Below are positions 26,150-48,600 of a stretch of DNA of 64,000 bases, piece after piece. The notes below the pieces were generated by a model, which was not told where the DNA came from, did not search any database, and was given only the letters and a program-made list of their open reading frames with translations. The stretch is from Pomacea canaliculata (taxonomy: Eukaryota; Mollusca; Gastropoda; Architaenioglossa; Ampullariidae), in the NCBI RefSeq assembly GCF_003073045.1, contig NC_037593.1:2037525-2101524 (forward strand), written 5' to 3'. Position 1 is the first letter of the stretch. Every line of letters starts with the position of its first letter. Both the position numbers and the translations under genes were made by a program.

Positions 26150-26995
26150 TAGACACACGGGTCTCTGTTTTATGCGAATAAAATAAATTTTGAAGTGGAA
26201 TTTAGCTCTAAACTGGGATGGTGTATGTATGAATTTTTCAAGAATTTTGAGTCAAATTTTTTGTATGTTAAAATGACAAAAATGATATAAGTGCTTCAGA
26301 TTAATTTGTAATATCATGTTAGATTTTTTAAATGTGAAATATGCGCAGTTTTGTTGCTGAAGGTGTTGTTGGTGGGCCACTTAGTGCTAGCGACTGCACC
26401 ACAGCAATCTTTGAGAGCGACGATTGTAAGGCCGAATTCTAGAAGTCACCGTTATACACGATTGAAATGGGAATCTTCTTAGCTGACTGACCAATCCCCA
26501 TCTGTCAGCAAAGCCAGGCCATTCCCCTATGCCTTGAGGATGAAAAAGGAGTACTTCGTGGCTGCGATTGGGTCCCAACTGTTGTGGCTGGATGATACTG
26601 TCTTGAATCAGTCATTTGAAAAAAAGACTTAATATCACCTGTCCACCACCTGCTTGACTTCTTTTGTTCAACAGACTGTAGACAGCACTGGTTACCATGG
26701 TGTTAGTTTTTAATTGTATATTTTTGGAGGCTAGAATTGTTAGAATCAGAATTTAGAATGAGACTAGAAATGTTAGAATAAGAATTTAGAATCAGACTGC
26801 AATTGTTGCTCATTTTCTCCCAGTGTCAAAACTGGAAGAAGAGTACATCCGATACGGCTGATTCAGTTGGGGTCATAGTTGGTTTTCCTGTGGAAGGCTA
26901 GTGATTACATTATCTTCAGTACCCGTTTCCTGCCTTGGACTATTCAATGAGTGCTGGGAGGTGGTGGTTGGTAGTGAAGGTGAAGAACAAGCTTT

Positions 26996-29900
26996 CTACA
27001 GTGGGTTTTCTTTTGCTTCTTCTTTGCGACAAGAAGAACACATAACTAGCTCTTCCTGTGAGAACAACCTTGCTGCGGTGCACTCTGTGTCGGGAAGCTC
27101 TGGAGATCGACACACAGGAGAGAGGGAGTTGCTTTCATTGGAAGACGAGTCAGGCCTTTCTAGTTCAGCGCTCACCTCTGCTAGAACCAGGGACAGTATG
27201 TCTGTGTCTTCTGATACTTGTGTTACGTCATCTGTGTGCCCTACATCTGTCACTTCCATAGCCTCTAGTGTTTGTACACTCTCCTGCCCTTCTCCAGTCT
27301 TTGGAGGTTCTGGAAGATGTTTTGTTGTACCCGCAAAGCGAAATTCGTGACAATCGTTTTTAGATAATGAATTTTCTTTTTTTGTCTCCCTGACCTCATC
27401 CTCCGCTGATGGTCTTAAAAAAACCGTTTCTGAGTCTGTAACTTCTACAGTATGTGCTACTTGTTGTGGGCTGTAGGGAGTAGAATAAATAGGCCACGCA
27501 CACACAGAGGTGAATTCTCTACTTTTTTCTTTAAAAACAATTTCACAGCTTTGGTAATTTTGAAATGCTGATTTATTATCCTCTGAAAGTTTCTTCACTA
27601 GGCGTCTCGGTCTGTCACTAGATTCTTCGGTCAAGTGCTCTGAGGAGCTTGATGATTCAGCATTTGCGCTGTATGTGGCGCGCTTGTGTGTCTTGATGAT
27701 CTTGTGCCTATCTTGCTTCTTTTCTTCCTCACTTCCTGATGCCTCGTCATCCGCGAAGAAGCTGCTGATTTCTGGTGGCATTTCGCCAAGTTCTAAGCTT
27801 GTAGTGATACTAGAGCTTTCAAATGCAGCATTCACTTCTTGGTTCTGTCGTTTCAACGGCTGGTCTGGGGGCAATGGAGTGGTCATAGTATCGGCTGCAC
27901 TAAGCCCTTGCTTCTCCGTGTCCTGAATTTGTATAGAGTCTACTAAACGCTCAGCAGATTGCTTCTTTTTTATGTCGGCTCCAGAAACTGATGTTCTTAC
28001 AACAGGCCATTCACAAACAGATGAAAATTCTCGATTGCTTTCCTTAAGAAATGAAACAAATGATGCATAGTTATTCTGTGTATTTGAATATTCTTTTTCG
28101 TTTCGGTCCAATGCCAAAGTTTCTGGTGCTTGTTTTGCGATCTTTTTTACCATGGCCCTTTTCGTCTCTTCGCCATCCACGTTCACGAAAGATTGTTCTA
28201 GATATATCTCCTGACACACCGTCTCCTGTGGCACTGACCTGCAATACTCCCTAAACGCAGAGGAAAGCTGTGGATCGTCTTCAAACAATGAATTAAATAA
28301 GGATGCTTTTTCTGTTTCCTTGACTTCCACATTCACTTCGGCTTTTTCTGAACATGCACCATGACAGTGTGCTATTTGAGGTGGCTCTTGTGTACTTACA
28401 TGCGCTGGATGATAATATCCCCTACACTCAGGGCAGAGTTCTTGATCTTCTTGAAAAAAGGAAGCAAATAAAGAAGCATACTTTAATTCTGCTTCCCGAC
28501 TTTCCACAGAGCCTCCTGCATATTGCGTTATCAAAGGCGCACGGCAATTACAATCAGCACAATATATATCGTCATCTGTTGAGGACGAGTCCATTTCTTG
28601 AACTTCAATAGTATTAAGTACATGTTTTTGGGAAAGTATTTCTGTACTGAATTCGTTATGAGATCCCATTTCATTGTACAACCTTTCTTGAATCAAAGAA
28701 AAAAAGTCAGTTTCAGATGGGACGCGTTTTAGTGCTGAAGGCACACAACTTTTAGCACTTTTGTGTGGTGGTTCTGGTACATAAGGCACTTCAGTAACAG
28801 GCCAGTCACACACAGACGTAAATTCTCGACCTTGTTCCTTATGGAATAAATTAATCTTATGAGTTTCTTTGTATGTCTCCGGTTTTTCATCTTTATAAGC
28901 ATACTTTGTTGGATCTTGTTTTACTTTGTCCCCATTTTTCGCAGAACAGATTTCTATCCGTGAAAATTCTTGTATTGCCTCTGGATCATTTAAAGTAATC
29001 TCTTGTACTTGATATGAATATGTTTGTGTTATCTTTACAGAATTCAAAGTCTCTGATTCATGTTTAACACGTTTTTTAATTTCTTGAACTGTTTCATCCC
29101 CTTCTGGTAGTAGAGAATATTTTCCGACCATACATATAGTTTCCGTAACTGTTACTTCTTCCACATCCTCGGATACTTCATGTCTGTATTCTACTTTTAG
29201 TTGTTCACGTGACGCAGTCTTTGATGCTTGTTTTGTAACTATTTCATACAAAGGTTCATCAACCCCAGCTTCATTAAATTCTCGAATGGTTCTTTGTGTT
29301 GTTGCTTTGACAGGCATAGTTTTTATTTCTTGCTTTGGGAATTGTTTTTCTATGTCTTCAACTTCATCAGGTTCATATTTTTGTTCTATCGACACTTTCC
29401 GCTTTGTTCTAATCCCCACAACGTCTAGTTCTTGCTGTGGATAACGTTTTGCTATTTTATCTGATGTGTCTGCTTGTTCTTTTCTCACCCTTTGCAATCT
29501 TTCAGGTTTTATAATTTCAACATCTTCTTTTACAATATCTTGGTCTATTTTTCGAACTATTGCAGCATCTGTAAATTCCTCGCCATCAATTCTTTGTTTT
29601 GAAAAGTCCTTTTTCGTTGCGTAAGCTGCAATCATCTCTTGCGCTTGTTTTGTTTTTATTTCATCGACGTCAGCCTCTGTTACTTTTGTGGGAGGTCGAT
29701 CTATTATCTTTGTAACTTCCACAGCTTTAACTGCTTGTTTTAACTCTGAACCTTGTTCTGAAGATTGTCTAACTGACTCTGGACCTTTAGGAACTTTTTC
29801 TGCTTCCTGTGAATATTCTTTCACCTCATGAGCTTTCTCAATATATGTTACTTGTTTTGGGTATTTACTTACTGTTTCTTTCTCCACTGCCCCCTGAATT

Positions 29901-32900
29901 TGCTTAGGTTCAGCTACTTGAGGTGTATATTTACTTATTGTTTCTGGAACTTCCATAACCTGTCTGGGCTGTACTGGATATCCTTTTTCTGCTTCTCCCT
30001 TAACTCCGCCAATCTCAGCTACTTGTTGTCTGGGCTGTACTGGATATCCTTTTTCTGCTTCTCCCTTAACTCCGCCAATCTCAGCTACTTGTTGTCTGGG
30101 TTGTACTGGATATCCTTTTTCTGCTTCTCCCTTAATTCCGCCAATCTCAGCTACTTGTTGTCTAGGCTGTACTGGATATCCTTTTTCTGCTTCTCCCTTA
30201 ACTCCGCCAATCTCAGCTACTTGTCTGGGTTGCACTGGATATCCTTTTTCTGCTTCTCCCTTAATTCCGCCAATCTCAGCTACTTGTTGTCTAGGCTGTA
30301 CTGGATATCCTTTTTCTGCTTCTCCCTTAACTCCGCCAATCTCAGCTACTTGTTGTCTAGGTTGTACTGGATATCCTTTTTCTGCTTCTCCCTTAACTCC
30401 GCCAATCTCAGCTACTTGTTGTCTGGGTTGTACTGGATATCCTTTTTCTGCTTCTCCCTTAATTCCGCCAATCTCAGCTACTTGTTGTCTAGGCTGTACT
30501 GGATATCCTTTTTCTGCTTCTCCCTTAACTCCGCCAATCTCAGCTACTTGTCTGGGTTGCACTGGATATCCTTTTTCTGCTTCTCCCTTAATTCCGCCAA
30601 TCTCAGCTACTTGTTGTCTAGGTTGTACTGGATATCCTTTTTCTGCTTCTCCCTTAACTCCGCCAATCTCAGCTACTTGTTGTCTAGGTTGTACTGGATA
30701 TCCTTTTTCTGCTTCTCCCTTAATTCCGCCAATCTCAGCTACTTGTTGTCTAGGTTGTACTGGATATCCTTTTTCTGCTTCTCCCTTAACTCCGCCAATC
30801 TCAGCTACTTGTTGTCTGGGTTGTACTGGATATCCTTTTTCTGCTTCTCCCTTAATTTCGCCAATCTCAGCTACTTGTTGTCTGGGTTGCACTGGATATC
30901 CTTTTTCTGCTTCTCCCTTAATTTCGCCAATCTCAGCTACTTGCTGTGGAGATTCACTGATTGTTTTTGGAACTTCTACACCCTTTCTGTCTTGTTGTAT
31001 ATAACCTTTTTCTACACCCTCCTTAATGTCTTTCACCTCTGCTACTTGTTGTGGAATTTTCGTAGCCTTCCTGGCTTGTTGACCTTCCAAAACGTCTTCA
31101 GAATATTCTTTTTCTACTGGTGCATGAATTTTTTTCTCATCTACTTGTTGTGGAACTACCTCCTGAATGTTCTTAGCTTCTGCTACTTGTTGTGGATATT
31201 TGCTAATTGTCTTTGGACCCTCCAAATCTTCTTGCAGATACCGTGTTTCTGGAACTTCCATAACTTTTTCTGCTTGTTCTTTAGATTCGCTTTGTATTCC
31301 TTGGAGAGTTTCTTCCACCTGAGCTACTTGTGGATATTCGCTTATTTTTTCTGGAACTTTCACATCCGCTCTGGCTTGTTGTGTATATTCCTTTTCCACT
31401 TCCTCTTTAATTTCATCCCTAGCTACTCTTTGTAAATCGTCACTTATTGCTTCTGGAACGTCTTGTTTCATGCCCTTTTGTGAATATTCTTTCTCTTCCT
31501 CTTTCTGAATTTTCTCCGTTTTAGCTGCTTGTTGTTCACTGACTGTTTTTGGACCCACCAAAACGTCTGGTACTGCCTGTGCATATTTTTCTTCTTCCCC
31601 TTCCTTGAGGCCTTTAGTGTGATCTACCTGTTGTGGATAGCCACTTACTTGGCCTGGAACGTCCACATCCTGTCCAGTCTGTAGTGGAAAGTCTTTCTCC
31701 CGAATTACCACTTGTTCTGGATATTCACTAACTGTCCTTGGACTTCCAGAAACATCGGCTGCCTCCTGGGCATACTTTTCTTCTGTTTCGTCCTTAATAT
31801 TTTCAATATCAGCTATTTGTTTCTTATAAGCCGTTATTGCTTCTAGAACTTCCACAGTCTTCATGCCTTGTTGAGGATATTCTTTCTTTGCTCCCTCTTG
31901 AATTCCCTCCGTGTCGGCTACTTGTTTCCGACATCCACAAACTGTCCTTGGACCTTCAGAAACATCGGCTGCTTCCTGGGCATACTTCTCCTCTGTTTTT
32001 TCCTTAATATTTTTAAAGTCATCTAGCTGTTGTGGATATTCACTTATTTTATCTGAAACTTCCACATCTTCTCTGGCTCGTTGTACATATTCTTTTTCTA
32101 CTTTCTCTTTAATTTGCTCAGCTTTACCTACTTGTGGATAGTCAGTTATTTGGTCTGGAACTTCCACAGCCTTCATGCCTTGTTGAGGATATTCTTTCTC
32201 TGCTCCCTCCTGAATTCCCTCCGTGTCGGATTCTTGTTCCGGATATTCACTAACTGTCCTTGGACCTTCAGAAACATCGGCTGCTTCCTGGGCATACTTC
32301 TCCTCTGTTTTTTCCTTAATATTTTTAAAGTCATCTAGCTGTTGTGGATATTCACTTATTTTATCTGAAACTTCCACATCCTCTCTGGCTCGTTGTACAT
32401 ATTCTTTTTCTACTTTCTCTTTAATTTGCTCAGCTTTACCTACTTGTGGATAGTCAGTTATTTGGTCTGGAACTTCCACAGCCTTCATGCCTTGTTGAGG
32501 ATATTCTTTCTCTGCTCCCTCCTGAATTCCCTCCGTGTCGGATTCTTGTTCCGGATATTCACTAACTGTCCTTGTACCTTCAGAAACATCGGCTGCTTCC
32601 TGGGCATACTTCTCCTCTGTTTTTTCCTTAATATTTTTAAAGTCATCTAGCTGTTGTGGATATTCACTTATTTTATCTGAAACTTCCACATCCTCTCTGG
32701 CTGGTTGTACATATTCTTTTTCTACTTTCTCTTTAATTTGCTCAGCTTTACCTACTTGTGGATAGTCAGTTATTTGGTCTGGAACTTCCACAGCCTTCAT
32801 GCCTTGTTGAGGATATTCTTTCTCTGCTCCCTCCTGAATTCCCTCCGTGTCGGATTCTTGTTCCGGATATTCACTAACTGTCCTTGGACCTTCAGAAACA

Positions 32901-35900
32901 TCGGCTGCTTCCTGGGCATACTTTTCCTCTGTTTTTTCCTTAATATTTTTAAAGTCATCTAGCTGTTGTGGATATTCACTTATTTTATCTGAAACTTCCA
33001 CATCCTCTCTGGCTCGTTGTACATATTCTTTTTCTACTTTCTCTTTAACTTGCTCAGCTTTACCTACTTGTGGATAGTCAGTTATTTGGTCTGGAACTTC
33101 CACAGCCTTCATGTCTTGTTGAGGATATTCTTTCTCTGCTCCCTCCTGAATTCCTTCCGTGTCGGCTGCTTGTTCCGGATATTCACTAACTGTCCTTGGA
33201 CCTTCAGAAACATCGGCTGCCTCCTGGGCATACTTTTCCTCTGTTTTTTCCTTAATATTTTCAATATCAGCTACTTGTTTCTTATAAGCCCTTATTTGGT
33301 CTGAAACTTCCACATCCTTCATGCCTTGTTGTGAATATTCTTTCTTTGCTCCCTCTTGAATTCCCTCCGTGTCGGCTACTTGTTTCCGACATCCACAAAC
33401 TGTCCTTGGACCTTCAGAAACATCGGCTGCTTCCTGGGCATACTTCTCCTCTGTTTTTTCCTTAATATTTTTAAAGTCATCTAGCTGTTGTGGATATTCA
33501 CTTATTTTATCTGAAACTTCCACATCCTCTCTGGCTCGTTGTACATATTCTTTTTCTACTTTCTCTTTAATTTGCTCAGCTTTACCTACTTGTGGATAGT
33601 CAGTTATTTGGTCTGGAACTTCCACAGCCTTCATGCCTTGTGGAGGATATTCTTTCTCTGCTCCCTCCTGAATTCCCTCCGTGTCGGATTCTTGTTCCGG
33701 ATATTCACTAACTGTCCTTGGACCTTCAGAAACATCGGCTGCTTCCTGGGCATACTTTTCCTCTGTTTTTTCCTTAATATTTTTAAAGTCATCTAGCTGT
33801 TGTGGATATTCACTTATTTTATCTGAAACTTCCACATCCTCTCTGGCTCGTTGTACATATTCTTTTTCTACTTTCTCTTTAATTTGCTCAGCTTTACCTA
33901 CTTGTGGATAGTCAGTTATTTGGTCTGGAACTTCCACAGCCTTCATGCCTTGTTGAGGATATTCTTTCTCTGCTCCCTCCTGAATTCCCTCCGTGTCGGC
34001 TGCTTGTTCCGGATATTCACTAACTGTCCTTGGACCTTCAGAAACATCGGCTGCTTCCTGGGCATACTTTTCCTCTGTTTTTTCCTTAATATTTTTAAAG
34101 TCATCTAGCTGTTGTGGATATTCACTTATTTTATCTGAAACTTCCACATCCTCTCTGGCTCGTTGTACATATTCTTTTTCTACTTTCTCTTTAACTTGCT
34201 CAGCTTTACCTACTTGTGGATAGTCAGTTATTTGTCTGGAACTTCCACAGCCTTCATGCTTGTTGAGGATATTCTTTCTCTGCTCCCTCCTGAATTCCCT
34301 CCGTGTCGGATTCTTGTTCCGGATATTCACTAACTTCCTTGGACCTTCAGAAACATCGGCTGCTTCCTGGGCATACTTTTCCTCTGTTTTTTCCTTAATA
34401 TTTTTAAAGTCATCTAGCTGTTGAGGATATTCACTTATTTTATCTGAAACTTCCACATCCTCTCTGGCTCGTTGTACATATTCTTTTTCTACTTTCTCTT
34501 TAACTTGCTCAGCTTTACCTACTTGTGGATAGTCAGTTATTTGGTCTGGAACTTCCACAGCCTTCATGCCTTGTTGAGGATATTCTTTCTCTGCTCCCTC
34601 CTGAATTCCTTCCGTGTCGGCTACTTGTTCCGGATATTCACTAACTGTCCTTGGACCTTCAGAAACATCGGCTGCTTCCTGGGCATACTTTTCCTCTGTT
34701 TCGTCTTTAATATTTTCAATATCAGCTACTTGTTTCTTATAAGCCCTTATTGCTTCTGGAACACCGAAAGACTTCCCGTCTTGATATTCTTTCTTTGTTC
34801 CTTCTTCACCTTCAGCTGCTCGTGGGTGTTCACTAACTGTCTGTCGACAACAACACAAAAACTTTCTTCCTTTCTGTGCATCTTCCTCTTTTATTACTTG
34901 TGTAGATTTTTCAATTTGTGCTGCTTGCGAAGACTCGGCCTTTGACTCTGTAGCTTTCAGAACCATCTCTGCTTGCTGTGGATATTGGTCTTCTACACCT
35001 ATCTGACTTTCTCCAGCCTCTCGTACTTTCAGAACCTCAGTGTCTTCTCGTTCTTCAGCTGCTGCTGGTTCATGTACTGTCTCTTGACTTGAAACCTCTT
35101 CTTCTTTCTGTGCATCTTCCTCTTTCATTACTTGGGAAGTTTCCTTAATTTGTGCTGCTTGCGAAGACTCAGCCTTTGACTCTGTAGCTTTCAGAACCTT
35201 CTCAGCTTGCTCTGGATATTGGTCTTCTACACCTATCTGACTTTCTCCAGCCTCTCGTACTTTCAGAACCTCAGTGTCTTCTCGTTCTTCAGCTGCTGCT
35301 GGTTCGTGTACTGTCTCTTGACTTGAAACCTCTTCTTCTTTCTGTGCATCCTCTTGTTTAAGTACTTGTGAAGTTTTCTCAATTTGTGCTGCTTGCGAAG
35401 ACTCAACCTTTGACTCTGTAGCTTTCAGAACCTTCTCAGCTTCCTCTGGATATTGGTCTTCTACACCTATCTGACTTTCTCCAGCCTCTCGTACTTTCAG
35501 AACCTCAGTGTCTTCTCGTTCTTCAGCTGCTGCTGGTTCATGTACTGTCTCTTGACTTGAAACCTCTTCTTCTTTCTGTGCATCCTCTTGTTTAAGTACT
35601 TGTGAAGTTTTCATAATTTGTGCTGCTTGCGAAGACTCAACCTTTGACTCTGTAGCTTTCAGAACCTTCTCAGCTTCCTCTGGATATTGGTCTTCTACAC
35701 CTATCTGACTTTCTCCAGCCTCTCGTACCTTCAGAACCTCAGTGTCTTCTCGTTCTTCAGCTGCTGCTGGTTCATGTACTGTCTCTTGACTTGAAACCTC
35801 TTCTTCTTTCTGTGCATCCTCCTCTTTCATTACTTGTGAAGTTTTCTCAATTTGTGCTGCTTGCGAAGACTCAACCTTTGACTCTGTAGCTTTCAGAACC

Positions 35901-38770
35901 TTCTCAGCTTGCTCTGGATATTGGTCTTCTACACCTATCTGACTTTCCCCAGCCTCTCGTTCCTTCGGAACCTCAGTGTCTTCTCGTTCTTCAGCTGCTG
36001 CTGGTCCACGTGTTGTAATCACGTCTTTCACTGGCTGTGATTCTTCTCTCCAAATAGTCTCTGGAACAGAATGTCTTCGACATGTACAGGATAGGTCCTG
36101 ATCTTGTTGAAAAGAAGGAACGATCACGTCTTTCACTGGCTGTGATTCTTCTCTCCAAATAGTCTCTGGAACAGTAATTCTTCGACATGTACAGGATAGG
36201 TCCTGATCTTGTTGAAAAGAAGGAACGATCATGTCTTTCATTGGCTGTGATTCTTGTCTGTAAATAGGCTCTGAAACAGAAAGCCTTCGACATGTAGAGC
36301 ATAGGTCCTGATCTTGTTGAAAAGAAGGATCGAATGATTCGTATCCCCTTTGTGCTACAGAGCATGGAAATTGTCCTGTGCTAAAGGGCTCAAGCAACTC
36401 GCATTCAGGACAACTTAGTACCATGCCGCATTCGCAAGGTATTTCCAGTCCATACCCGGCCGTTTCTGGGTGCTGACATTCCATCTGTGAAAGTTGATGA
36501 ATACCAAGCTCTTTACACTCACAGCAGAGCTGTAGATCTTCCTGAACCATTGAAGCGTAAAAAGTCGCATAATCCATTTCTGTCACACTAAAGGGCACAA
36601 AACTATTGCATTCAGGACAATAATCGTATTCTAAGTCAGCTGTAACAGCACTACACGTGGGTGTTTGATCACGAACTGATGAAGTGACTTGTTGTGGATA
36701 TTCTTTTCCTACACCCTTTTGAATTTTTTCAACTTTCTGTGCGCTCACATCCTCTGTTTCGTGCTGCTTAGCTGAGTGACTCTCTGGTTCTTGTATTGTA
36801 CTCACGTTTTCGATAAGTTTAGCTTTCATTGTTTTTAGCTCATTTGTATAATGTTTCTCCATTTCGTCTGCTGTTATAGTTTGAATTGCTTGATCTAAAT
36901 ATTCTTTATCTATAAGTGGTTCTATTTCTTCGTATTTTTCCCACATTTCGTCTGCTGCTGACGTTTGAACTGACTGATCTATTTGTTGGTCTGGATATTC
37001 GTTTTCTGGAAATGGTTCTATTTCATCGTCGTATTTTCCCTCCATTTCGTCTGGTGCTGCAATTTCATTTGATTCAGCTAAGTGTTGATCTGAATATTCT
37101 TTTTCTGTAAATGGTTCTATTTCCTCGACTCCCCTCATTCCGTTTGCTGCTGCAGCCGATGGCTCAAAAGGATTTTTACAGGTAGAGCACGACTCTAGAC
37201 CTTCCTGAAAAAATGGCGTATAATCCATGTCTATGTCTCTAGAAAGCACAAGACGCTTACATTCTGGACATAACTGGAATTCTTCTGAATGTGACTTATC
37301 ACTAGCTTTGCTTGATGCGGGTTCTTCATCAGGAACAGATGGATCCGCCATCTCTTCTGTATCCCGCTGATACACTTTCTTCTTCGTCACATCCTCGGGT
37401 CCTCTCGAATAATTCTGGTCTATTTTTGTATTTTCCTCATTCTCTGTTTCATTTCCTGGGTATTCTTTTTCTATTTCTTGAGTTTCTATTTCTTTGACAT
37501 TCTGAGCCTTGAGCACTTGTGCTGCAACTTCTTTCCCTACTGGCTCAACTTCTAAGACCTCTTTTTCTTTTTTCATTTCTTTAGCCTTTGAAGTCTTTTC
37601 TTCCAACTTTATTCCAAGACTTTCATTATCTACTATTTGTTTTGCTGACCTTACCAAGGCCTCTATTATTTGCCTTAGAATTTCTTTTTGTACTTCGTCA
37701 AGTTCTTTTATTTCTCGTTCTGAATATTCTTTCTCATCAAGTTCTTTTATTTCTCCTTCTGGATATTTTTCCCATATTTGCTGGACTTGTTGATACTCAC
37801 TATCTTGAATTTCTGTAGAACTGTCCTGTTGTCCATAATTCGGTACTATCTCGGGATAGTCTGGTATTGGAACAAATACGATTTCTCCATGATCTGGTCT
37901 CTGCTTCACTGGGAGACCTTGGAGCATGTCATCAATATCCTGGCACCAGTCGTCCAGAGAGACGGCCGTCATACTGGTGACGGTACGGGGGACATGAGGT
38001 CTGCGCTCGGGACCCGTTTGCATGACAAAGCAGGGAACACCCGTTTCGCTAGTTTCACGGGTGACCACTTCTGGAGTGGAGGATTCAAAATCAATAAACT
38101 TCTGCTTTGGAAAGCGGACGAGGTCGACCTTTGAGACGCTGTCCTCAGTACCGACAGCACACTCGTCCGCCATGTTGAGGGGTACCGACAGGGATGTCTC
38201 TATGTCGCGGATGCGGTCGCGGATGTTGCGGCACCATTCGTTCAACGACACCGACGACATGGACTGCACGGTGTGCACTAGCTCTGGGCTAGCTTCCTGT
38301 TCTGGGGACAATATCTTCTCTTTTGGTGATGGCGGTGGTGTCGGCGTCAACTTGACCTTTAGCGACCTCTTGCTGGGACGCCGGGTCCCAGCTCGCAGCT
38401 CCGCGGCGGCTTGGAGGTTAAAGTCGCTGCTTACGGTTTTTGCTGAAGGTGGCAGCTTCTTCTCCAGCAGTGCAATCCTTTCATTCACCTTCCTGCACCA
38501 CATCTCAAGGGTTTTAGGAGACATGGTGTGCACAGTCTGGAAGGGACGCAGTAGCCACTGTGGGTAGGTTTCTGTAGGCGGAGGTTTGAAAACTTCCCGG
38601 AAGGACTTCCTTCGGCGACTATGCGTTTTCTCATGGGCGGAACGCTCCAAGCAGTGAATCCTGTCACTGATCTCCTTGCACCACGAACTGAAGGAACCGG
38701 AAGACATGGAGTGCACGATGTGGGGGAGGCCTGACTTATTTCGGCGGACTTTCGTCCAGATTTCCTCCAT
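26996..38770 (-). CDS. Giant single-exon repetitive protein, ~3924 aa, family unrecognised
   Basis: One uninterrupted frame of 3925 codons lies in a single exon. ATG 38770 follows a good acceptor (TGTCTACAG, ~38780), so at least one 5' exon is likely. The open frame continues 13 codons upstream through that acceptor. Layout by residue: four copies of a V-x-SMS-x2-SL-x2-WC motif (about 17-44, 75-101, 165-190, 262-286); acidic Glu/Lys-rich stretch with EKEY-type words (300-720); Cys-pair modules CPEC...CxxC near 500, 735-760 and 790-900; 78-aa repeat x5 (925-1313); 104-aa repeat x8 plus shorter relatives (1337-2357); diverged repeats (2357-2609); 22-aa repeat x15 (2609-2936); a unique C-terminal third with three EFTSVCxWP motifs and two more Cys-pair modules (~3400-3450). 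No signal peptide, transmembrane segment or enzymatic motif was seen. Charged, coiled-coil-prone composition suggests a structural or scaffold protein. I do not recognise homologues. Confidence 0.85.
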   Translation of the reverse strand: MEEIWTKVRRNKSGLPHIVHSMSSGSFSSWCKEISDRIHCLERSAHEKTHSRRRKSFREVFKPPPTETYPQWLLRPFQTVHTMSPKTLEMWCRKVNERIALLEKKLPPSAKTVSSDFNLQAAAELRAGTRRPSKRSLKVKLTPTPPPSPKEKILSPEQEASPELVHTVQSMSSVSLNEWCRNIRDRIRDIETSLSVPLNMADECAVGTEDSVSKVDLVRFPKQKFIDFESSTPEVVTRETSETGVPCFVMQTGPERRPHVPRTVTSMTAVSLDDWCQDIDDMLQGLPVKQRPDHGEIVFVPIPDYPEIVPNYGQQDSSTEIQDSEYQQVQQIWEKYPEGEIKELDEKEYSEREIKELDEVQKEILRQIIEALVRSAKQIVDNESLGIKLEEKTSKAKEMKKEKEVLEVEPVGKEVAAQVLKAQNVKEIETQEIEKEYPGNETENEENTKIDQNYSRGPEDVTKKKVYQRDTEEMADPSVPDEEPASSKASDKSHSEEFQLCPECKRLVLSRDIDMDYTPFFQEGLESCSTCKNPFEPSAAAANGMRGVEEIEPFTEKEYSDQHLAESNEIAAPDEMEGKYDDEIEPFPENEYPDQQIDQSVQTSAADEMWEKYEEIEPLIDKEYLDQAIQTITADEMEKHYTNELKTMKAKLIENVSTIQEPESHSAKQHETEDVSAQKVEKIQKGVGKEYPQQVTSSVRDQTPTCSAVTADLEYDYCPECNSFVPFSVTEMDYATFYASMVQEDLQLCCECKELGIHQLSQMECQHPETAGYGLEIPCECGMVLSCPECELLEPFSTGQFPCSVAQRGYESFDPSFQQDQDLCSTCRRLSVSEPIYRQESQPMKDMIVPSFQQDQDLSCTCRRITVPETIWREESQPVKDVIVPSFQQDQDLSCTCRRHSVPETIWREESQPVKDVITTRGPAAAEEREDTEVPKEREAGESQIGVEDQYPEQAEKVLKATESKVESSQAAQIEKTSQVMKEEDAQKEEEVSSQETVHEPAAAEEREDTEVLKVREAGESQIGVEDQYPEEAEKVLKATESKVESSQAAQIMKTSQVLKQEDAQKEEEVSSQETVHEPAAAEEREDTEVLKVREAGESQIGVEDQYPEEAEKVLKATESKVESSQAAQIEKTSQVLKQEDAQKEEEVSSQETVHEPAAAEEREDTEVLKVREAGESQIGVEDQYPEQAEKVLKATESKAESSQAAQIKETSQVMKEEDAQKEEEVSSQETVHEPAAAEEREDTEVLKVREAGESQIGVEDQYPQQAEMVLKATESKAESSQAAQIEKSTQVIKEEDAQKGRKFLCCCRQTVSEHPRAAEGEEGTKKEYQDGKSFGVPEAIRAYKKQVADIENIKDETEEKYAQEAADVSEGPRTVSEYPEQVADTEGIQEGAEKEYPQQGMKAVEVPDQITDYPQVGKAEQVKEKVEKEYVQRAREDVEVSDKISEYPQQLDDFKNIKEKTEEKYAQEAADVSEGPRKLVNIRNKNPTRREFRREQRKNILNKHEGCGSSRQITDYPQVGKAEQVKEKVEKEYVQRAREDVEVSDKISEYPQQLDDFKNIKEKTEEKYAQEAADVSEGPRTVSEYPEQAADTEGIQEGAEKEYPQQGMKAVEVPDQITDYPQVGKAEQIKEKVEKEYVQRAREDVEVSDKISEYPQQLDDFKNIKEKTEEKYAQEAADVSEGPRTVSEYPEQESDTEGIQEGAEKEYPPQGMKAVEVPDQITDYPQVGKAEQIKEKVEKEYVQRAREDVEVSDKISEYPQQLDDFKNIKEKTEEKYAQEAADVSEGPRTVCGCRKQVADTEGIQEGAKKEYSQQGMKDVEVSDQIRAYKKQVADIENIKEKTEEKYAQEAADVSEGPRTVSEYPEQAADTEGIQEGAEKEYPQQDMKAVEVPDQITDYPQVGKAEQVKEKVEKEYVQRAREDVEVSDKISEYPQQLDDFKNIKEKTEEKYAQEAADVSEGPRTVSEYPEQESDTEGIQEGAEKEYPQQGMKAVEVPDQITDYPQVGKAEQIKEKVEKEYVQPAREDVEVSDKISEYPQQLDDFKNIKEKTEEKYAQEAADVSEGTRTVSEYPEQESDTEGIQEGAEKEYPQQGMKAVEVPDQITDYPQVGKAEQIKEKVEKEYVQRAREDVEVSDKISEYPQQLDDFKNIKEKTEEKYAQEAADVSEGPRTVSEYPEQESDTEGIQEGAEKEYPQQGMKAVEVPDQITDYPQVGKAEQIKEKVEKEYVQRAREDVEVSDKISEYPQQLDDFKNIKEKTEEKYAQEAADVSEGPRTVCGCRKQVADTEGIQEGAKKEYPQQGMKTVEVLEAITAYKKQIADIENIKDETEEKYAQEAADVSGSPRTVSEYPEQVVIREKDFPLQTGQDVDVPGQVSGYPQQVDHTKGLKEGEEEKYAQAVPDVLVGPKTVSEQQAAKTEKIQKEEEKEYSQKGMKQDVPEAISDDLQRVARDEIKEEVEKEYTQQARADVKVPEKISEYPQVAQVEETLQGIQSESKEQAEKVMEVPETRYLQEDLEGPKTISKYPQQVAEAKNIQEVVPQQVDEKKIHAPVEKEYSEDVLEGQQARKATKIPQQVAEVKDIKEGVEKGYIQQDRKGVEVPKTISESPQQVAEIGEIKGEAEKGYPVQPRQQVAEIGEIKGEAEKGYPVQPRQQVAEIGGVKGEAEKGYPVQPRQQVAEIGGIKGEAEKGYPVQPRQQVAEIGGVKGEAEKGYPVQPRQQVAEIGGIKGEAEKGYPVQPRQVAEIGGVKGEAEKGYPVQPRQQVAEIGGIKGEAEKGYPVQPRQQVAEIGGVKGEAEKGYPVQPRQQVAEIGGVKGEAEKGYPVQPRQQVAEIGGIKGEAEKGYPVQPRQVAEIGGVKGEAEKGYPVQPRQQVAEIGGIKGEAEKGYPVQPRQQVAEIGGVKGEAEKGYPVQPRQQVAEIGGVKGEAEKGYPVQPRQVMEVPETISKYTPQVAEPKQIQGAVEKETVSKYPKQVTYIEKAHEVKEYSQEAEKVPKGPESVRQSSEQGSELKQAVKAVEVTKIIDRPPTKVTEADVDEIKTKQAQEMIAAYATKKDFSKQRIDGEEFTDAAIVRKIDQDIVKEDVEIIKPERLQRVRKEQADTSDKIAKRYPQQELDVVGIRTKRKVSIEQKYEPDEVEDIEKQFPKQEIKTMPVKATTQRTIREFNEAGVDEPLYEIVTKQASKTASREQLKVEYRHEVSEDVEEVTVTETICMVGKYSLLPEGDETVQEIKKRVKHESETLNSVKITQTYSYQVQEITLNDPEAIQEFSRIEICSAKNGDKVKQDPTKYAYKDEKPETYKETHKINLFHKEQGREFTSVCDWPVTEVPYVPEPPHKSAKSCVPSALKRVPSETDFFSLIQERLYNEMGSHNEFSTEILSQKHVLNTIEVQEMDSSSTDDDIYCADCNCRAPLITQYAGGSVESREAELKYASLFASFFQEDQELCPECRGYYHPAHVSTQEPPQIAHCHGACSEKAEVNVEVKETEKASLFNSLFEDDPQLSSAFREYCRSVPQETVCQEIYLEQSFVNVDGEETKRAMVKKIAKQAPETLALDRNEKEYSNTQNNYASFVSFLKESNREFSSVCEWPVVRTSVSGADIKKKQSAERLVDSIQIQDTEKQGLSAADTMTTPLPPDQPLKRQNQEVNAAFESSSITTSLELGEMPPEISSFFADDEASGSEEEKKQDRHKIIKTHKRATYSANAESSSSSEHLTEESSDRPRRLVKKLSEDNKSAFQNYQSCEIVFKEKSREFTSVCAWPIYSTPYSPQQVAHTVEVTDSETVFLRPSAEDEVRETKKENSLSKNDCHEFRFAGTTKHLPEPPKTGEGQESVQTLEAMEVTDVGHTDDVTQVSEDTDILSLVLAEVSAELERPDSSSNESNSLSPVCRSPELPDTECTAARLFSQEELVMCSSCRKEEAKENPL
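29961..30943 (-). repeat. 66-bp (22-aa) tandem array, 15 copies, in the giant gene
   Basis: Each unit encodes a variant of QQVAEIGGIKGEAEKGY plus PVQPR. Two units are 63 bp (one Gln missing). Variants alternate Ile/Val after GG, and units 6-10 and 11-15 share the same order (Ile, short-Val, Ile, Val, Val), so a 327-bp five-unit block has been duplicated recently. Copies are nearly identical at DNA level, typical of an array still evolving by unequal exchange. Confidence 0.92.
31700..34760 (-). repeat. 312-bp (104-aa) tandem array, about 8 copies, in the giant gene
   Basis: Copies recur exactly 312 bp apart over long stretches (for example 31.9, 32.2, 32.5, 32.8 kb and 33.4, 33.7, 34.0 kb), with one 210-bp short unit between them and one 309-bp copy at ~34.2-34.5 kb. 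Each 104-aa unit splits into three related sub-repeats of 35, 35 and 34 aa that share a pattern of E-K-x-Y-x-Q, V-x-V, I-x-x-Y-P-Q and a closing I-K-E. Copies are more than 95 percent alike by eye. Confidence 0.9.
34830..35995 (-). repeat. 234-bp (78-aa) tandem array, 5 copies, in the giant gene
   Basis: Each unit contains AAAEEREDTEVLKVREAGES, then QIGVEDQYPE, then KATESKVESSQAAQI and a KEEDAQKEEEVSSQ end. Five copies are present; the one farthest downstream has a diverged end carrying a CCC triplet. The unit shares the YP(E/Q)QAEK word with the 104-aa array, suggesting a distant common origin. Confidence 0.88.
35995..36335 (-). repeat. 105-bp (35-aa) Cys-Cys repeat, 3 copies, in the giant gene
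   Basis: Three head-to-tail units encode SFQQDQDL, a C-x-C-R-R or C-S-T-C-R-R group, then VPETIWREESQPVKD. They are an amplified form of the FFQEDQ-CxxC half-module found elsewhere in the protein. The first copy keeps CSTC; the other two read SCTC. Confidence 0.85.
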
Positions 38771-38784
38771 GGTCCTGTAGACAC

Positions 38785-39614: not shown

Positions 39615-42600
39615 TCACTGCACGTACATCTTATCTGGATCCCATGGCTCCACGTCCACTGACTCTTCCTCAGACTTCTCGACCACTTCCTCCTCGTAGG
39701 AAGTGGATGAGGAGATGCTGCTGACGGACACGCAGCTCAAGTCGGCCCAGCCCCAGGTCATCTCCTGCCTAAAATCCTCCGTGAAGAGGTTGTCGACGAT
39801 CATCTTACCTCTGTCCGTCTGCACTTCGACGTTATGGGACCGCCGCCAGAAGCCTTTGGATTTCGCGTGCATCTGTCAGACAAACGAACATTGCCATAGA
39901 TGTCAGGGGCAGCTCAAAACACTGACAATGAAGGCTGCATTGCACCACTCGGATATTCATTCTTTTCTGCTTTTTTCTTTGTGGCTTTATCGGCAGAAAC
40001 ACGGCTTTAAAGACGATTTTGTATATTTTATACTAATTGACATGTTTCTAAAAAGTACGTATGTTTTCCCTAATACTAAAGTTTATCATCATCGTAACGA
40101 CCTTTAAATCTGGACAAACACCATAGGCCGGATCAAAATTCTCTGAAAAAATCTTTAAGAACGAGAAAAGTAAAAGACAAGTAATCTTTTTTCAACAGCA
40201 AAAGTCTTTTTCTTTGATTTCTGCATTGCTTGCTGGCTGCTGCGGTTCATCGTGGATGTCTTCTTTCTCACTGCATAGATGCCCGCTTGGCATGATTGCT
40301 TATGGACCATAGGGTTATACCTTAGTTGCTGCTACTGGAATAGCTCACATGCCTGCAAGGAAGTATGCAAAGGTAAAGTATACATGTTTATCAAGGTATA
40401 GAATGTGGAAGGAGATGCAATACGATATCTTTCTGTCATTGATGAGTCATCTTCTCTGGGTCCTTAGGTGGATGGGAAGAAATTATAAATTTAGCTTCAG
40501 GCTATTATTTGCTTTTATCAATTTAAATCAGAAACTCAGCATTCTACTTTCAATAGGAAGACTGACAAGGAGCTTGACCACTTTCTCCAAGATGGGGTGG
40601 ACTTTCTTACTTTGAGGATCATTTTGTAAAATCTGAACTGTAGTTTAACAAAAATATCACTAATTCCTGGTGCCCATATTTCACAACTGTAAGTATTTAA
40701 AGGACAATTCTGTCAAACATACTGAGTTGTTTATCTAGTGGTTGTTGTGACTGTTTACTTTTGTTTAGTAGGGCAAACATATGGCTCTTGATGCTCTGTA
40801 ATACAATCTTTTTGTGCTACAAGAAATTTGTTCTTACAATTCAGTTTCAGGTCAAGATAGAAAAAATAGTTTACTATTTCAAGTTTCTCACCACTATGTA
40901 TAAATGTTGGTTTCTTTCTTATTTTACCTGTAGAAAATAAAACTATTTTAGCTTTGTCTGGGTTATTTTTCATGTTCCACATTATTTTTTCATGCTGTCT
41001 AAAGCATTCTGTAGGTTATTTGGTGCTTCAGAGAAATGACAGTATCATCTGCATACAGTAAGATGAATAATTTAAGGAGCACATCAGTATCTTGAGGAGT
41101 AAGGTTACTTGTGGTGTCAGTTTGGCTAATTCTGAGAGACCACTTACAGAGTCCGCTAAGAGATGTGTTTTCAGGTCATTAAGTTAAAGTGCAACCAGTA
41201 AAGGAGATAGGTTCTCTCCTTACCTAACACTGTGACTACTTTAAAAAAACTGATTGGTTTCCATTGATTTTTAACACAGGATTTTGCCTTTTTGCCTTTT
41301 TGCCTAATACTTGATTATATTTATAAATCTTCCACCACCCCCATAGCCTAATAATTTTTCCCTCAGACAGGCTCTATTTTGTCGAAGGCTTTTTGATAAT
41401 CTACAAATGCACAGAAGACTTGCTTCTTTCTACTTAATAAGATTTCAAAAATGCTTTGCAAGGTGAATAGGTGCTTAAAGGTGGATAGGCCATGTCAAAA
41501 GCCTGCTTGTTCCTGCTCAACAAGATCATTTTCGTCCAAATAGTGTTTTAAGTGTTCATTGAGGACACTTGTGAATAGTTTACAGAAGAAGCTAAGAATT
41601 GTGATGTCAAGGTAGTTATTTGGATCACTTTGCTTTTAAAAAACTGCTGTTATAATACCTGTTGCTCATTGTTTTGGGGGAATGACCTGTTGATAGTATG
41701 AGGATAAAGAGGGTCCTGAATAGAGTCAGTCTTTGGTTGTGAGAATTTGAAAAATTCATTTATATTGTCAATTCCACAGGCTTTATTTCCTTTAAGATTT
41801 TTAGGCAATTGGCATCCTCATTCTCAGATGCTTAAGTGTTGGGATAGCTATTGCTAGTCTCAGATATGACCACAGGTACATCAGTCTCAAATGTATCATT
41901 ATAGGAATGGTTTATCTCCTTAAAGTGTTCTAAGAATTCAATTTAAAATTAAATTAAAAAAAATTAACGTCTCTTCATGCGGTGTAAGCAATTTTATCTT
42001 GGGAGGCACGGTTTTGCAAGTCATAATAATTATTGAGGATAAAGTCAGGGTTCTGTAATTCATCACTCAGTTTTGTTTTTTAGATTTGCCCAGTTCTAGC
42101 ATTTAGGTCTCCCATTATACATATATGTTCTGTGTTAAGGGCAAGGAGGATCTCCTCCAGCTCACTAAATGCAACTGAGTTAATATATCGTAACCCTTCA
42201 GGTGGCATGTACACACCCACAACATAATATTCTGACCTATAGATTCCTTTTCAACTTTTAAGAAGAAAGCATCCCGGTTTATCTTGTAAAAGAGTAATAA
42301 TGCATGTTATCTTCGTTTATGATATTTTTTTTCAGATAGCCCTTAAAAAATAGTTAGGTATGGGTGAGTGATTCTCTAATGTAAGAACAACTCCCGATCT
42401 TCTGACACATATGCTGCTATTCTTATAGAAGGGTACATAAGCATCATTGTGAATCGAGTCAATGTTGTCTAGCTTGTTTAACACACAACAAATATTATAT
42501 GACTTTATCAAGTCTACCAAGTCTAGAAAAATTAACTCTGAAGTAACATCACATGCATTCAAAATAAGGCAGGACAAATAAGTTATTGAGTCTTCAGGTT

Positions 42601-45600
42601 TCTCAGGGTGGGGACTTACTTCCATACACACCCGATGGCGAACTACACAGTAATACAAGACAGAGACCACTATCTTCTCTGTAATACTGCCATTTGATGT
42701 ACTTACTCCAGTTGTAGTCGTTACTGGTATATCCATGAGGTTAGACACCCCCACACCCGGCAAGAAGTATGAAATAGGTCAGCTTTGGCACTGGACCAGT
42801 TGTAAGGTGGGTCACTAGTGGCTGCATTCACAGGTAACTTAAGGTCTTCTGAGCAATGAATACCCTTAGGGATGACCTAGCAGATAAGTAGGCTATAGAC
42901 AGGCCAAGTTTATTGTAGTCAACACTGTTTTCACTAAGTTTGAATAAATCATCTGATGTTTCAATGCATGTCGGTCGATCTTGGTTTGAGCAGGGTATAC
43001 CAACTGGTGTCTTCTTAAAGCACCAGATTTTACCATCTGTAGACCATGCTCTGCTCACACACCCCAGGCCTTTCACATATTTCAGAACTTTTGCTCCGAG
43101 TGGGGTCATGTAATAATTTAAGAACATCTTGTTTCTGTAGCCTGGTTTGTCTATCAAAGTTTTCTTCTTCATCACTTCTGTCCTTTTTTTTTACGCTAGA
43201 CGAATTTGACGATAATTTGTTTCCACGGTTGCGTTTCTGTCCAGTGCGGTGCGCTGCAGAAATATCCTCAGGGTGGATGGATGCGCTCCAGTCGGTCAAG
43301 ATTTTTATCACTTTTTCTTCGACATTCTCGTCTGGCATTTCACCGAATCCTGATATTCTGGTGGATTCACGCCGAGAATATGCTTATAGCCGGTCCTGCT
43401 GGTGTCTGAGTTGTAGGACTCTATATACTCTCCACTCGCTGCTCCATGTCTTGCAGGTTGTCTCGTTGACATCTGTAGCCTGCAGCTTGAAGTGACGATC
43501 AAGCACCTCTGCGACGACAACTGAGATGATTGTCACAAGTGCGGGGAGTATTTGCCGCAGGAAGGTGTTTTCACAGGTGACACATTCACTAGTCTGCGCA
43601 AGCGCTTCGTTAACACTTATACGTGTTAGAATATTTTCGTTACGTCGGCCACATCTGCTCTCTCTTCCTCGTCAAGATCTAATTTTCAGGATCCCGCCTT
43701 TCAACATCGTCAAAGCCAGACTTTTATTTTAGGATCTCTTTGACTAGCCGAAGGTGGGGAGAATAGCGAGAGTTTGCTTTTACCAGTTGTTCGATTATCG
43801 CTATGCTTACCGCCTCGTTTGGCAGACGACAGCAGCAGACGAGAAGTTGAACTCACCGCAAAATGCTTCGATCCTAATTTTTTGACACTTTGAATCGTAC
43901 AGACCTTGACGTGGCCTCCCAAACAATTAAGACAGGTTTTCACAGCTGTCACGAATGTCCGCGATTGTCATGTTATGCATTATCACGGATCAAATATTTA
44001 AATGCTTACTTACAACTGAAATCTCGCCATCGTGAGATTACGGCGCTACTTTCAAAATGGCGACTCGCGAGTCAACACGTGAGAAAGGATTGTAATAAAA
44101 ACATTAATTTTTTTCATTATTGTGATTTATGCATTCTCAAAAAATATTTAAGTCGCGGACCACCTAAGCAGTATGCACCCCAATCACCGCAGCTTAATGA
44201 CCCTACACTGTATATATTTTTATATATGTGAACACTTTGTCGTAAGTTAAAATGGCAATTAGTAGATGAAAACTAGAAAAATTGGAAAGCCCGACAAGCA
44301 AGCAAGCAATGAAATCACATTCATTCTTCTTGAATCGAACTAGCAACCCTCTGCAGTACGTGATTTGATCGCCACAGTCCCGTCGTGCTTAGACGAGTAT
44401 AGTGCAAACCTTCCTAATGTTAGCAACAACTTCATCCATCATAGCCTTGTCAATGTAACGGAATCTCTGGTCGTATTGGAAACACACGATAAAGGACAAC
44501 CGTTTCCAACATTGGGGGTTCAAGCCCGGGATTTCGATCAACAATTAAGCACGTCGATCTTTGACCTCCCGACGCTTCTCGTTGACTCCTGAACAGCGCG
44601 ACCTGTCGACACTTTTTCCTCAATAAAACAGTCTGGCTGTAACGGTCACTGGAAGCTAGCACGTGCCTCTTTGAGCCCGTGCAAAACACGCACGCACACA
44701 CATGCACATACACACACAAACGCACCAACGCGGCGGCGGCCTTCTCCTCTTCGTCCTTAGCGCACCAGTCGCAGATGGTAGAAATGTACGTTGGCTCGTC
44801 TGTGCCTTTATCTAGGGGCTGAGGGATGGGGGGTAGCTTAATTACTTTTTTCTTGCGCTGTACAGCCTGCAAAGCAAACAGGGTACGTATGAATGATGTG
44901 TGTACCTTTGTACGTATGTTTGTATGCACTGGTATACTTTGTGTGTGTGTGTGTGTGTGTGTACATGTATATATACATGTATGTGGGTTCATTCAAGTAT
45001 AGTACGAGTAGTGTGGGAGGGTGGGAGAGCAAGAGAGTAAGCGGATGAGTAAATGAGATTTGGAGTAAAACAGGCTAAAGGCACAGTCTGCTTTACGTGG
45101 AATCAACAGCCACATACAGTCACACAAATTAAATTGTGACAGCGGTACCTGAGGAGGAATACTGTGACGGGTGCGTGACAGTTTCAGTCGTAAATACTTG
45201 TCAGATTTTACATCAAATTGCAAGAGAAGTGAACTATTTCATCTTTGGGTAGAATATGTAATAAGAAACAGCTCATATTTGGGTACCTATAGCGCAAAAA
45301 TTTCATTAACGAGGTACAGTGTTAACTGCCAATTTAGGGGAACAAGTACGTTTCCCTGACAGCAGCGGCAAGCAGTCATTTAGTGTTAACTAGCATCCGC
45401 ATACAAATTGTCTCCGGGGATGGAGGGATGCAAAAGGCACATCCGATAGTGATGTAGATTGACAATGTTAATGTTGGAGTCACAGCACAGCAACCGATGA
45501 TGAAAGTATAGTTTGGTCTAAAATCGTTTGGTTTAGTTGGTGTACAGGACATTTCATCTTCTGATTGGCGCTGCATGGTGTTAGGGAAATGTCCCTGTCT

Positions 45601-48600
45601 GGTGCCGAATTATGAGAAGGTTAGTTTATCAGTGCTCACAAAGCGCCTTGGATCATTTCGTAACGTAGTTCAAGAGCACAACACTCAAACTCCGGCTCCC
45701 TTTGATACCACTTTGAAAACTTTGGTGTTATTAGGGCTTACTTAAAGTGTGGCTGGTGTAAAACTTTTAGGATATTAGCCTTGGAGCTGTTTTTAAGGCA
45801 ATATCGCTATTCCTTTGGCGAAGGATGCTGTAAATAGTCATTGACAAACCTTGCTCACCTTAATCAGCCTGACCTATCGCACAGGTAGTCAAAATAATAC
45901 AAACAAAGTCGCACGTACATCGATACAAACAACACTTTGCTTTTTTAAAGTTGAAGCAGCTTATTTTAACAGACGGACAAACAGACAGACAGACCAGATA
46001 GGACAAGACAGACAGACGGACGGACGGACGGACGGACGGACGGACGGACGGACGGACGGACGGACGGACGGACGGACGGACGGACAGACAGACAGACAGA
46101 CAGAATTTTGATTTTTTTTTTTTTACCTTTTTCGGTTGGCGGGCCTTTTGCTCTTTCTTTTGCAATACTTCATTTTCTTCAGTGTAAGAGTCCTCTTCTG
46201 TTTCTACCTTAACCTTCTTGCAAGGTTTTTTGTCGTAGAGCGGGATGCGGCCCTCGAGACGCAGAGGTTGATGCTTGTACGGGGAGACGAGCGCCGGCAT
46301 AGGTGACCCTTGCTGTTCAAGAAACAGCGGTCATACCCGCAAACACAACCTCCAGCACTAGCCGGGTGGCGACTTTATAACTAAGGCGAACACACGCTCA
46401 AGCTCTCACATGCTGTTACATTAACATCCAACAGCTTCTAACGCGTCCTAAGTTTGATGCTTTTTTCTTCTGCGATTTATGTGAAATGTTTAGGATGGCA
46501 GAGGTATAGATAAAAACATGTTTAAATGCCAACGCGATGTAAAACAAATTAACATCATTTTACGTACATCTCCCTGGACACCCAGGTCGGTGACGCGACG
46601 GACAAAGTCTGGGAAGTACAGACCCTGTATTTTGTTGTCTTTGGGATCCTTTTCCGCTAAAGCAGCATTTTTAAAACGGGTGGCGCGCCAGGCGGCTATT
46701 CGGGTGGTCTGGTAAAACCTCCGGGCTTGTTCAGGGGTCTGTTTCACCATCGTCTTTGAAGACACAGCTAAAGCCTACATACAGATCAAAGACGTACATT
46801 GTGTCTTTTTTGGTGATTACAAAGGACTACTGGGCACTTGAACTGATGACTCTTAAGACTTGTATTATTGGTAGTATTACTTTACAGTGATTCCGTTCAG
46901 TAGGGCTTGTGACTTGATAGGAGAGGGTACCTTAATGGTTTCAGAGGGCAAGCTGTCGGTATTTTTGTGTTTGACTTACTTTCATTACAATTTTGTTGCC
47001 CCACCCCCCAAATTATGTGCTGGCGTTTTAGTGACATCTACAGCTTCTGCATTTTCCTTCAAACTGTCATCTTTATCTCAAACAGTCAAGTTTCTTATTT
47101 CCTTAGTTCTTATTGTACTCTCAGACGCAGGGATATTCTTTTCCATTTTCATCCAAAACCTTGCACTATGTCTAGTTACCATTGGAACAGAAATAATCTA
47201 CGAATATTGTCTGCGTTTTTTATTTATACCACCAAACTTTCTTCTATTTTTGCAATTGCGTCTGCGGCTCATGTAGATATATACCACGATTGGCCGTTTT
47301 GAAGTGTCAGTATCAAACATTGCACAAACTAATTAAATCCAGATTATTCGTGTGGAGTATTTGCGCATGTAAGCTGCATCATGTTAGTGTAGAAAGGGTG
47401 TCTGGCGCAAGAAAACATCTATAGCACTAGCGGGTCATCAATCAACTTCATCGATCTTAAAAAGGCATTTGACAGAGTCTGACATAAGGGGATATGGCGT
47501 GAAAATGCGACAGTGCAACATCCAAGGTCTCGTCTAAGTAATGAAAGCACTATACAAGAACTCAACGAACTCAGTACTACTAGACAACCAAATGAAAGCT
47601 TTCTTTCACACGACAGTAGTCATCCGTGAAAGTGCGCCCCTTATCGTCCGAATAGTTCAAACATTTTGGAGAACATCGTGCGAGAACACCTTCCACAACC
47701 ATCTCACTATCTCACTTCCATTTCCACTGGTGAGAGGCCGATATGCTTTGCAGACGACTTTGATGTGATAGTATACACCAACACAAGACTACAAAATCTT
47801 ACCAACAGACTGATCGGCAGCTCAAGCTCGCATGAAACGGAGACCGGAATGGGCAAGAGTAAAATCATGGCCATTGGAAACAGCAAAGCATGTACCTACA
47901 TAGACAACCTAAAGTACTTGCAAGCTGCCCTCTCCAAAGAAGGATCGCGACTGCAACAGCAGTAATGGCTAGACTGAACAGGCTCTGGCACAGCAATAAC
48001 ATCAAGTTTTTACGATGTGCAAACTGTACAAGTTCCTCCTAAACAGACCAGTCCTGCTTGTCGGTTCTGACAGGAGAATCCATGCATGCGAGAACAAGTG
48101 GCAGCAAGAGCAGCTCTCAAGGTACCTTGGTTGGAACGACACCTATGTGGTAAGTGGAGGAGCTGGTTTACTAACGTGGAGTGGACTGGTCGGTCCATGC
48201 AGGACCTGCTCATCACCGCTTGAGACAGGTGTGAGTAACGGGCTCTGTCAGCTACGACATCTATTCATGTCTCCCCAAAAGGACTGGTACCAGTCAACGG
48301 ACAAATAAATGAATGAAAGTAAGGTTATGTGCTATATAAATCCATTCATCAGCCTCATCGTTTTTTAAAAATTTTGTTTTCAATCAACTTCAAACTGTTA
48401 AAATGCAACAAATTGTATTCTGCTAAACACTTTACTTTCAGTCAATTAAATATCATTTTTTATATACTCACGGATGGGTGCCGATCAACAAAGTCTCTCA
48501 CTTTCTTTAGGTTATTGTTTTTGAGATGTTTATCTCTTTTTTCGAATAACCGTAAGCCTCTGTCTGAATAAGCGGTTTGGTGCTGTGCTAGAGGACAGAC

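Follow-up and report, generated by a model that had tools for sequence, protein, structure and literature searches.

In the AHNAK gene, small exons lie on either side of a giant exon, and both a giant and a small protein are made from it. In the giant protein, a long middle of tandem repeats separates the unique N- and C-terminal parts, with repeat lengths of about 128 residues in AHNAK and about 165 residues in AHNAK2 (PMC10682155, in the part of the text available to us). In ankyrin-G and ankyrin-B, a very long exon has been added to a multi-exon gene whose products act as scaffolds (PMC5422562, available in part). Longer internal exons are also reported to encode disordered protein more often (PMC9825244, likewise in part). 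Here we describe a locus of the gastropod Pomacea canaliculata, in a stretch of 64,000 nucleotides (the window; RefSeq assembly GCF_003073045.1, contig NC_037593.1, positions 2,037,525 to 2,101,524), which carries a giant open frame on the minus strand. On balance, we favour its interpretation as the 11.8-kb last exon of a nuclear animal gene with about four to six coding exons, which would encode an acidic intracellular scaffold or spacer protein of up to ~481 kDa. The giant gene is clearly coding, and its function is putative.

The giant frame occupies positions 38770-26996 and comprises 3,924 residues and a stop (3,925 codons), as had been reported in an earlier reading made from the letters of the DNA (the sequence-only reading). 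Under a dinucleotide Markov model, the probability that a frame of this length is free of stops by chance is about 10^-102. For the non-repeated ends the corresponding values are ~10^-21 (residues 1-900) and ~10^-26 (residues 2940-3924). Over the same stretch, 235 and 326 stops were counted in the two other sense frames and 110-168 in the antisense frames. Since the odds are tiny even in the non-repeated ends and the other frames are rich in stops, the giant frame is coding and not an artefact of its repeats; it is real, far beyond chance. An antisense frame of 535 codons (29828-31435) was not counted as a gene; it was read as a side effect of the opposite strand's 66-bp repeat.

A typical 3′ splice site, gcttgtgtctacag/GACCATGG (ctacag/GACCATGG, the slash marking the junction), ends 4 bases 5′ of the ATG of the giant frame and ranks 22nd among 658 AG sites. 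Further upstream on the same strand, five segments bounded by AG or ATG and GT were located by eye and by codon score (Table 1). Joined to 38774-26996, they form one frame of 4,251 residues (481 kDa), with phases of 0, 0, 0, 0 and 2 that match throughout. Splice sites were ranked using generic weights. Among 658 AG sites, the five acceptors of the six-exon model ranked between 2 and 69; among 638 GT sites, its five donors ranked between 8 and 111. All ten thereby fall within the top 17.5% of their class of site. None of the five segments has a stop in the chosen frame, compared with 1-7 in the other frames, and in each of them GC content is lowest at the second codon position. Past the stop of the giant frame, ATTAAA occurs at 26714, in addition to the candidate signal listed in Table 1. 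The sequence-only reading had taken the single exon for the whole gene. With an acceptor before the ATG and five in-phase segments upstream, this is doubtful and probably wrong; the arrangement points to a longer, multi-exon gene, in which the coding exons probably number four to six. Within the proposed 4.9-kb intron 4, at 40800-43400, there are degenerate coding remains that resemble a non-long-terminal-repeat retroelement, a label given from the translation. The single piece of this stretch that was searched (43033-43383) had no Pfam match.

The giant exon served to train a crude gene finder, which was restricted to exons of at least 90 bases and run with three penalties. Whichever penalty was used, none of 100 Markov sequences attained the score of its best chain, and this chain outscored the opposite strand. 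Three boundaries of the six-exon model were found again (donor 46127, acceptor 44866 and donor 39628). With this measure of independent support, exons 3-5 are likely to be real, and exons 1 and 2 are possible.

Alternatively, the small exons could form a separate gene that ends after ...DPDKMYVQ, while the giant frame, with a 5′ untranslated exon of its own, starts at its ATG and encodes 3,924 residues. The frame of exon 5, if unspliced, indeed meets a stop directly after this peptide, a few codons beyond the proposed donor, and would give a short protein. The giant-frame ATG also follows very closely on the acceptor, and GC content at third codon positions differs, at 0.62 in the small exons while the giant exon has 0.40 and 0.29 in its two unique ends. 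However, the phase matches at every junction, including phase 2 into the giant exon, and an ending in phase 2 scored highest in the gene finder. Moreover, neither AATAAA nor ATTAAA is present in the 853-base intron 3′ of exon 5. Two separate genes are a serious but rather unlikely arrangement, and we retain the multi-exon gene as the working model.

Tandem repeats make up ~1,700 residues of the giant frame. They form an array of 78-residue units, an array of 35-residue units of three types that build a 104-residue composite, and an array of 22-residue units. The 35- and 22-residue units have a related core (EKEYPQQ and EKGYPVQ). A profile hidden Markov model (HMM), seeded with seven units of the same protein, one of which was of the 22-residue type, had 64 hits in the frame, and 49 of them outscored everything found in 50 shuffled copies (maximum 7.2 bits). 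No 78-residue unit scored above this shuffled maximum, and the profile does not show them to be kin to the other repeats. EYPxQ-like motifs occur 62 times, compared with 2.04 per shuffle, for a pattern that was defined after the sequence had been inspected.

Four WC helix modules precede the repeats, with the pattern V..M..[ST][LF]..WC (also written M..SL..WC). The V, M, W and C are invariant across the alignment of the four copies, and an HMM built from any three of them recovered the fourth, with 14.3-34.5 bits. A helix was predicted at every module by single-sequence AlphaFold, with low confidence (predicted local distance difference test, pLDDT, of 64, 67, 69 and 42 for the four blocks). 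Nine C..C pairs are present in the giant frame. The tandem arrays and Cys pairs noted in the sequence-only reading were recovered. Four copies of a larger module, a C..C pair followed by a loop of 23-38 residues and a second C..C pair, flank the repeat middle and may bind zinc. The second half of a Cys module (SFQQDQDL, then a Cys pair) recurs in three near-identical 105-bp units at 36018-36333.

Three REF[TS]SVC.WP motifs are found near the C terminus. They share the short local motif F.S.C.WP with the MsrB/SelR proteins, and C..C pairs occur elsewhere in the giant protein. The motifs could be remnants of that fold, in which case the protein would end in a redox domain. Within the C-terminal part (901 residues), the SelR profile matched residues 703-753 (18.9 bits, E 0.0015), and TIGR00357 matched nearly the same residues (16.7 bits). 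However, both matches are below their cut-offs (24.9 for SelR and 113.05 for TIGR00357), and the best stretch takes in just one of the three WP motifs. In addition, a profile of the three motifs matched no PDB chain at E ≤ 10. A redox domain at this end of the protein is very improbable.

Table 1. Positions in the window of the proposed exons, sequence modules and repeats of the giant gene.
Feature	Positions	Strand	Remarks
Exon 1 (possible; weak), possible start ATG	48472..48690	-	codon score -7.8; skipped by gene finder
Exon 2 (possible; weak)	46568..46753	-	codon score -5.5; skipped by gene finder
Exon 3 (likely)	46127..46312	-	donor rank 8/638; donor also picked by gene finder
Exon 4 (likely)	44726..44866	-	acceptor rank 2/658; acceptor also picked by gene finder, donor put at 44766
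Exon 5 (likely)	39628..39872	-	phase 2 into giant exon; donor, not acceptor, also picked by gene finder
Giant last exon (probable)	26996..38774	-	ATG at 38770, stop at 26996, 3924 aa
Four WC helix modules, residues 13-300	37871..38734	-	leave-one-out HMMs, alignment, helix predicted per copy
Three C..C/C..C modules	37151-37303, 36491-36652, 36263-36445 (span 36263..37303)	-	alignment
78-residue repeats, residues 922-1311	34838..36007	-	five copies, last degenerate
35-residue repeats, three types in a 104-residue composite, residues 1341-2345	31736..34750	-	
Repeat copy with three single-base deletions	34232..34348	-	deletions jointly restore frame
22-residue repeats, residues 2609-2937	29960..30946	-	15 copies, two spacings of 21
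Three REF[TS]SVC.WP motifs near C terminus	28736-28903, 27941-28108, 27431-27598 (span 27431..28903)	-	alignment
Fourth C..C/C..C module	28397..28585	-	alignment
Candidate polyadenylation signal AATAAA	26144..26149	-	~850 bases past stop

The giant frame alone encodes a protein of 443 kDa with an isoelectric point (pI) of 4.67. The pI of the six-exon model is 4.74, and its upstream part (326-327 residues) is basic, with a pI of 8.85. Maximum hydropathy over 19 residues is 0.92, and there is no strong hydrophobic segment. When the protein is cut into 250-residue blocks, the charge-hydropathy line places 16 of the 17 full blocks on its disordered side, although five of these come within 0.05 of it and are marginal. 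The suggestion in the sequence-only reading of a structural or scaffold protein fits the acidic repeats, the absence of an enzyme domain above a cut-off and the lack of a strong hydrophobic segment; its description of the gene as a single exon is probably wrong. None of the results pointed to the muscle or shell gland named in that reading. In such a protein, the N-terminal part with its four WC helices, which would be amphipathic, might anchor or oligomerise the molecule. The middle of ~2,000 residues, mostly repeats with EYPxQ-type cores, could form a flexible array in which one docking site is presented many times over, and it could also determine a length. On either side of it, the Cys-pair modules may form small metal-held knots. 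The protein would remain inside the cell, where it would serve as a scaffold or spacer linked to the cytoskeleton or to a membrane.

Searches for known families were negative. In Pfam, the whole giant frame had no family at E ≤ 1, its two unique ends had sub-threshold matches only, and the 326-327 upstream residues had nothing above cut-off. No catalytic or enzyme domain was found above the Pfam cut-off in the giant frame, the unique ends or the upstream residues. No NCBIfam model reached its cut-off with the giant frame or the unique ends (the best whole-frame match was NF003502, with 16.1 bits against 250), no PADLOC model reached E 0.01 with the unique ends, and at gathering scores Rfam matched nothing in the window. 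PDB was searched by sequence, the queries being the whole frame, its two ends, the upstream residues, a neighbouring exon and three module profiles, and nothing convincing emerged. Weak matches to queries from the giant gene were judged unrelated (SPC24, E 0.33; SMG8, 0.26; haemagglutinin HA2, 0.55; DsbA, 0.74; RPA12, 1.1; WNK3, 0.65; and others), as were those to the neighbouring exon (HDAC4, E 0.17; AAA ATPase, 0.24). Two scans of viral contigs with both unique ends returned 13 and 12 pattern matches, and one scan of GTDB genomes with the C-terminal part only returned 27, with no relative confirmed in any of them. These scans covered viral and prokaryotic collections and say little on animal relatives, or on the lineage-specific character suggested in the sequence-only reading. 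In open-access literature searched by topic, no title or abstract opening among the entries listed pointed to the giant protein. The sequence-only reading, which had seen no recognisable family and no enzymatic domain, agrees with these results. The giant protein is of no recognised family: the type of gene is familiar, and the family could not be named.

Among the repeat copies, distinct changes comprised 14 synonymous changes over 126.6 sites and 21 non-synonymous changes over 482.4 sites (Fisher p 0.008). This test took three families, with six copies of the 104-residue unit, four of the 78-residue unit and 15 of the 22-residue unit. It excluded the copy with three deletions, any incomplete copies of the 104-residue unit and the degenerate copy of the 78-residue unit. 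In the copy with deletions, three single bases are missing within ~105 bp, and ~35 residues are read in other frames; it is otherwise identical there to one sister copy. The deletions may be genuine compensating changes or a local consensus or assembly error in the repeat, and the frame is open either way. We put forward more tentatively, as a possibility short of an even chance, that the gene represents an undescribed family of giant animal scaffolds. Such a family would combine WC helices, flanking C..C/C..C modules and an expandable EYPxQ array. Unequal exchange would tune the length of the array, and selection would keep the frame despite deletions.

Several observations weigh against the proposed multi-exon scaffold gene. 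The gene finder recovered just three boundaries of the six-exon model. It opened the gene at ATG 46300, inside exon 3, shifted other boundaries (e.g. donor 44766 and acceptor 39717) and omitted exons 1 and 2, which have negative codon scores (Table 1). It also included pieces at 43.1-43.4 and 40.8-40.9 kb that resemble retroelement remains. A chain of 24 tiny exons obtained at a lower penalty was discarded as not credible. At lower penalty, the opposite strand (101.7-103.2) also beat 60 out of 60 Markov sequences (maximum 93.4). Since the opposite strand likewise exceeded all of these sequences, the Markov null is a lenient one. The synonymous test is weakened by gene conversion among copies. 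The 35a set was excluded from it because three of the ten members are divergent or partial; this set has 16 synonymous changes, 53 non-synonymous changes and one change that counts as a stop relative to the consensus codon (ratio 0.83). EYPxQ is regarded as a putative docking site from the recurrence of the motif. Finally, since the single-sequence structure models were poor (mean pLDDT of 39.4 for residues 1-310 and 32.7 for residues 3130-3480), neither fold nor disorder is established.

Other parts of the window also have coding potential. On the minus strand, two long open segments at 53433-54181 resemble coiled-coil exons of a neighbouring gene, with no Pfam family above cut-off. At 18692-19977, on the same strand, a Cys-rich stretch, EGF-like when judged by eye, adjoins open segments in which N, G, S and P are abundant. 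They have the appearance of secreted matrix proteins and had no Pfam match. On the plus strand, segments within 10289-15055 read like WD40 repeats by eye (e.g. LQIWDF), and these short pieces had no Pfam match.

The giant protein could also be a divergent member of a known giant family, such as AHNAK, the giant ankyrins, MAP1/futsch or a titin-like spring, with its folded domains outside the window or diverged past the profiles. The giant isoforms of ankyrin possess ankyrin repeats and other folded ankyrin domains encoded in the same gene. No family exceeded the Pfam cut-off in the giant frame or the upstream residues, PDZ and ankyrin included, and membership of a known family is improbable. 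By layout, the nearest known gene would nevertheless be AHNAK. As in AHNAK and AHNAK2, to the extent that the available part of PMC10682155 describes them, a repeat middle lies between unique ends, and in the in-phase six-exon model there would be a giant exon together with small exons. A small protein is reported from the AHNAK locus in the same part of that source, and one is conceivable here through the stop following exon 5. In contrast to AHNAK with its N-terminal PDZ domain, Pfam found no PDZ domain in the giant frame or the upstream residues, and the repeat periods of 78, 104 (3 x ~35) and 22 residues differ from the ~128 and ~165 residues given there for AHNAK and AHNAK2. Nothing corresponding to the Cys-pair and WC modules is mentioned in the available description of AHNAK (PMC10682155). 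Since neither the PDZ domain nor the repeat type of AHNAK was found, the giant protein was not filed under that family.

The giant ankyrin exon, as far as the available text of PMC5422562 describes it, is a looser parallel. The giant exon here ends the gene model, and Pfam found no ankyrin-type domain in the exons of that model. The relation between exon length and disorder is stated for internal exons in the available part of PMC9825244, whereas the giant exon here is terminal. Going by these partial sources, giant-exon scaffold proteins such as AHNAK and the giant ankyrins are a known but small set (PMC10682155, PMC5422562). If expressed, the Pomacea gene would add to them an unnamed family with modules of its own (WC helix, Cys pairs and EYPxQ array). 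Gene annotation frequently breaks giant-exon genes. The repeat copies, again if the gene is expressed, would provide a natural series in which the growth of giant proteins could be studied.
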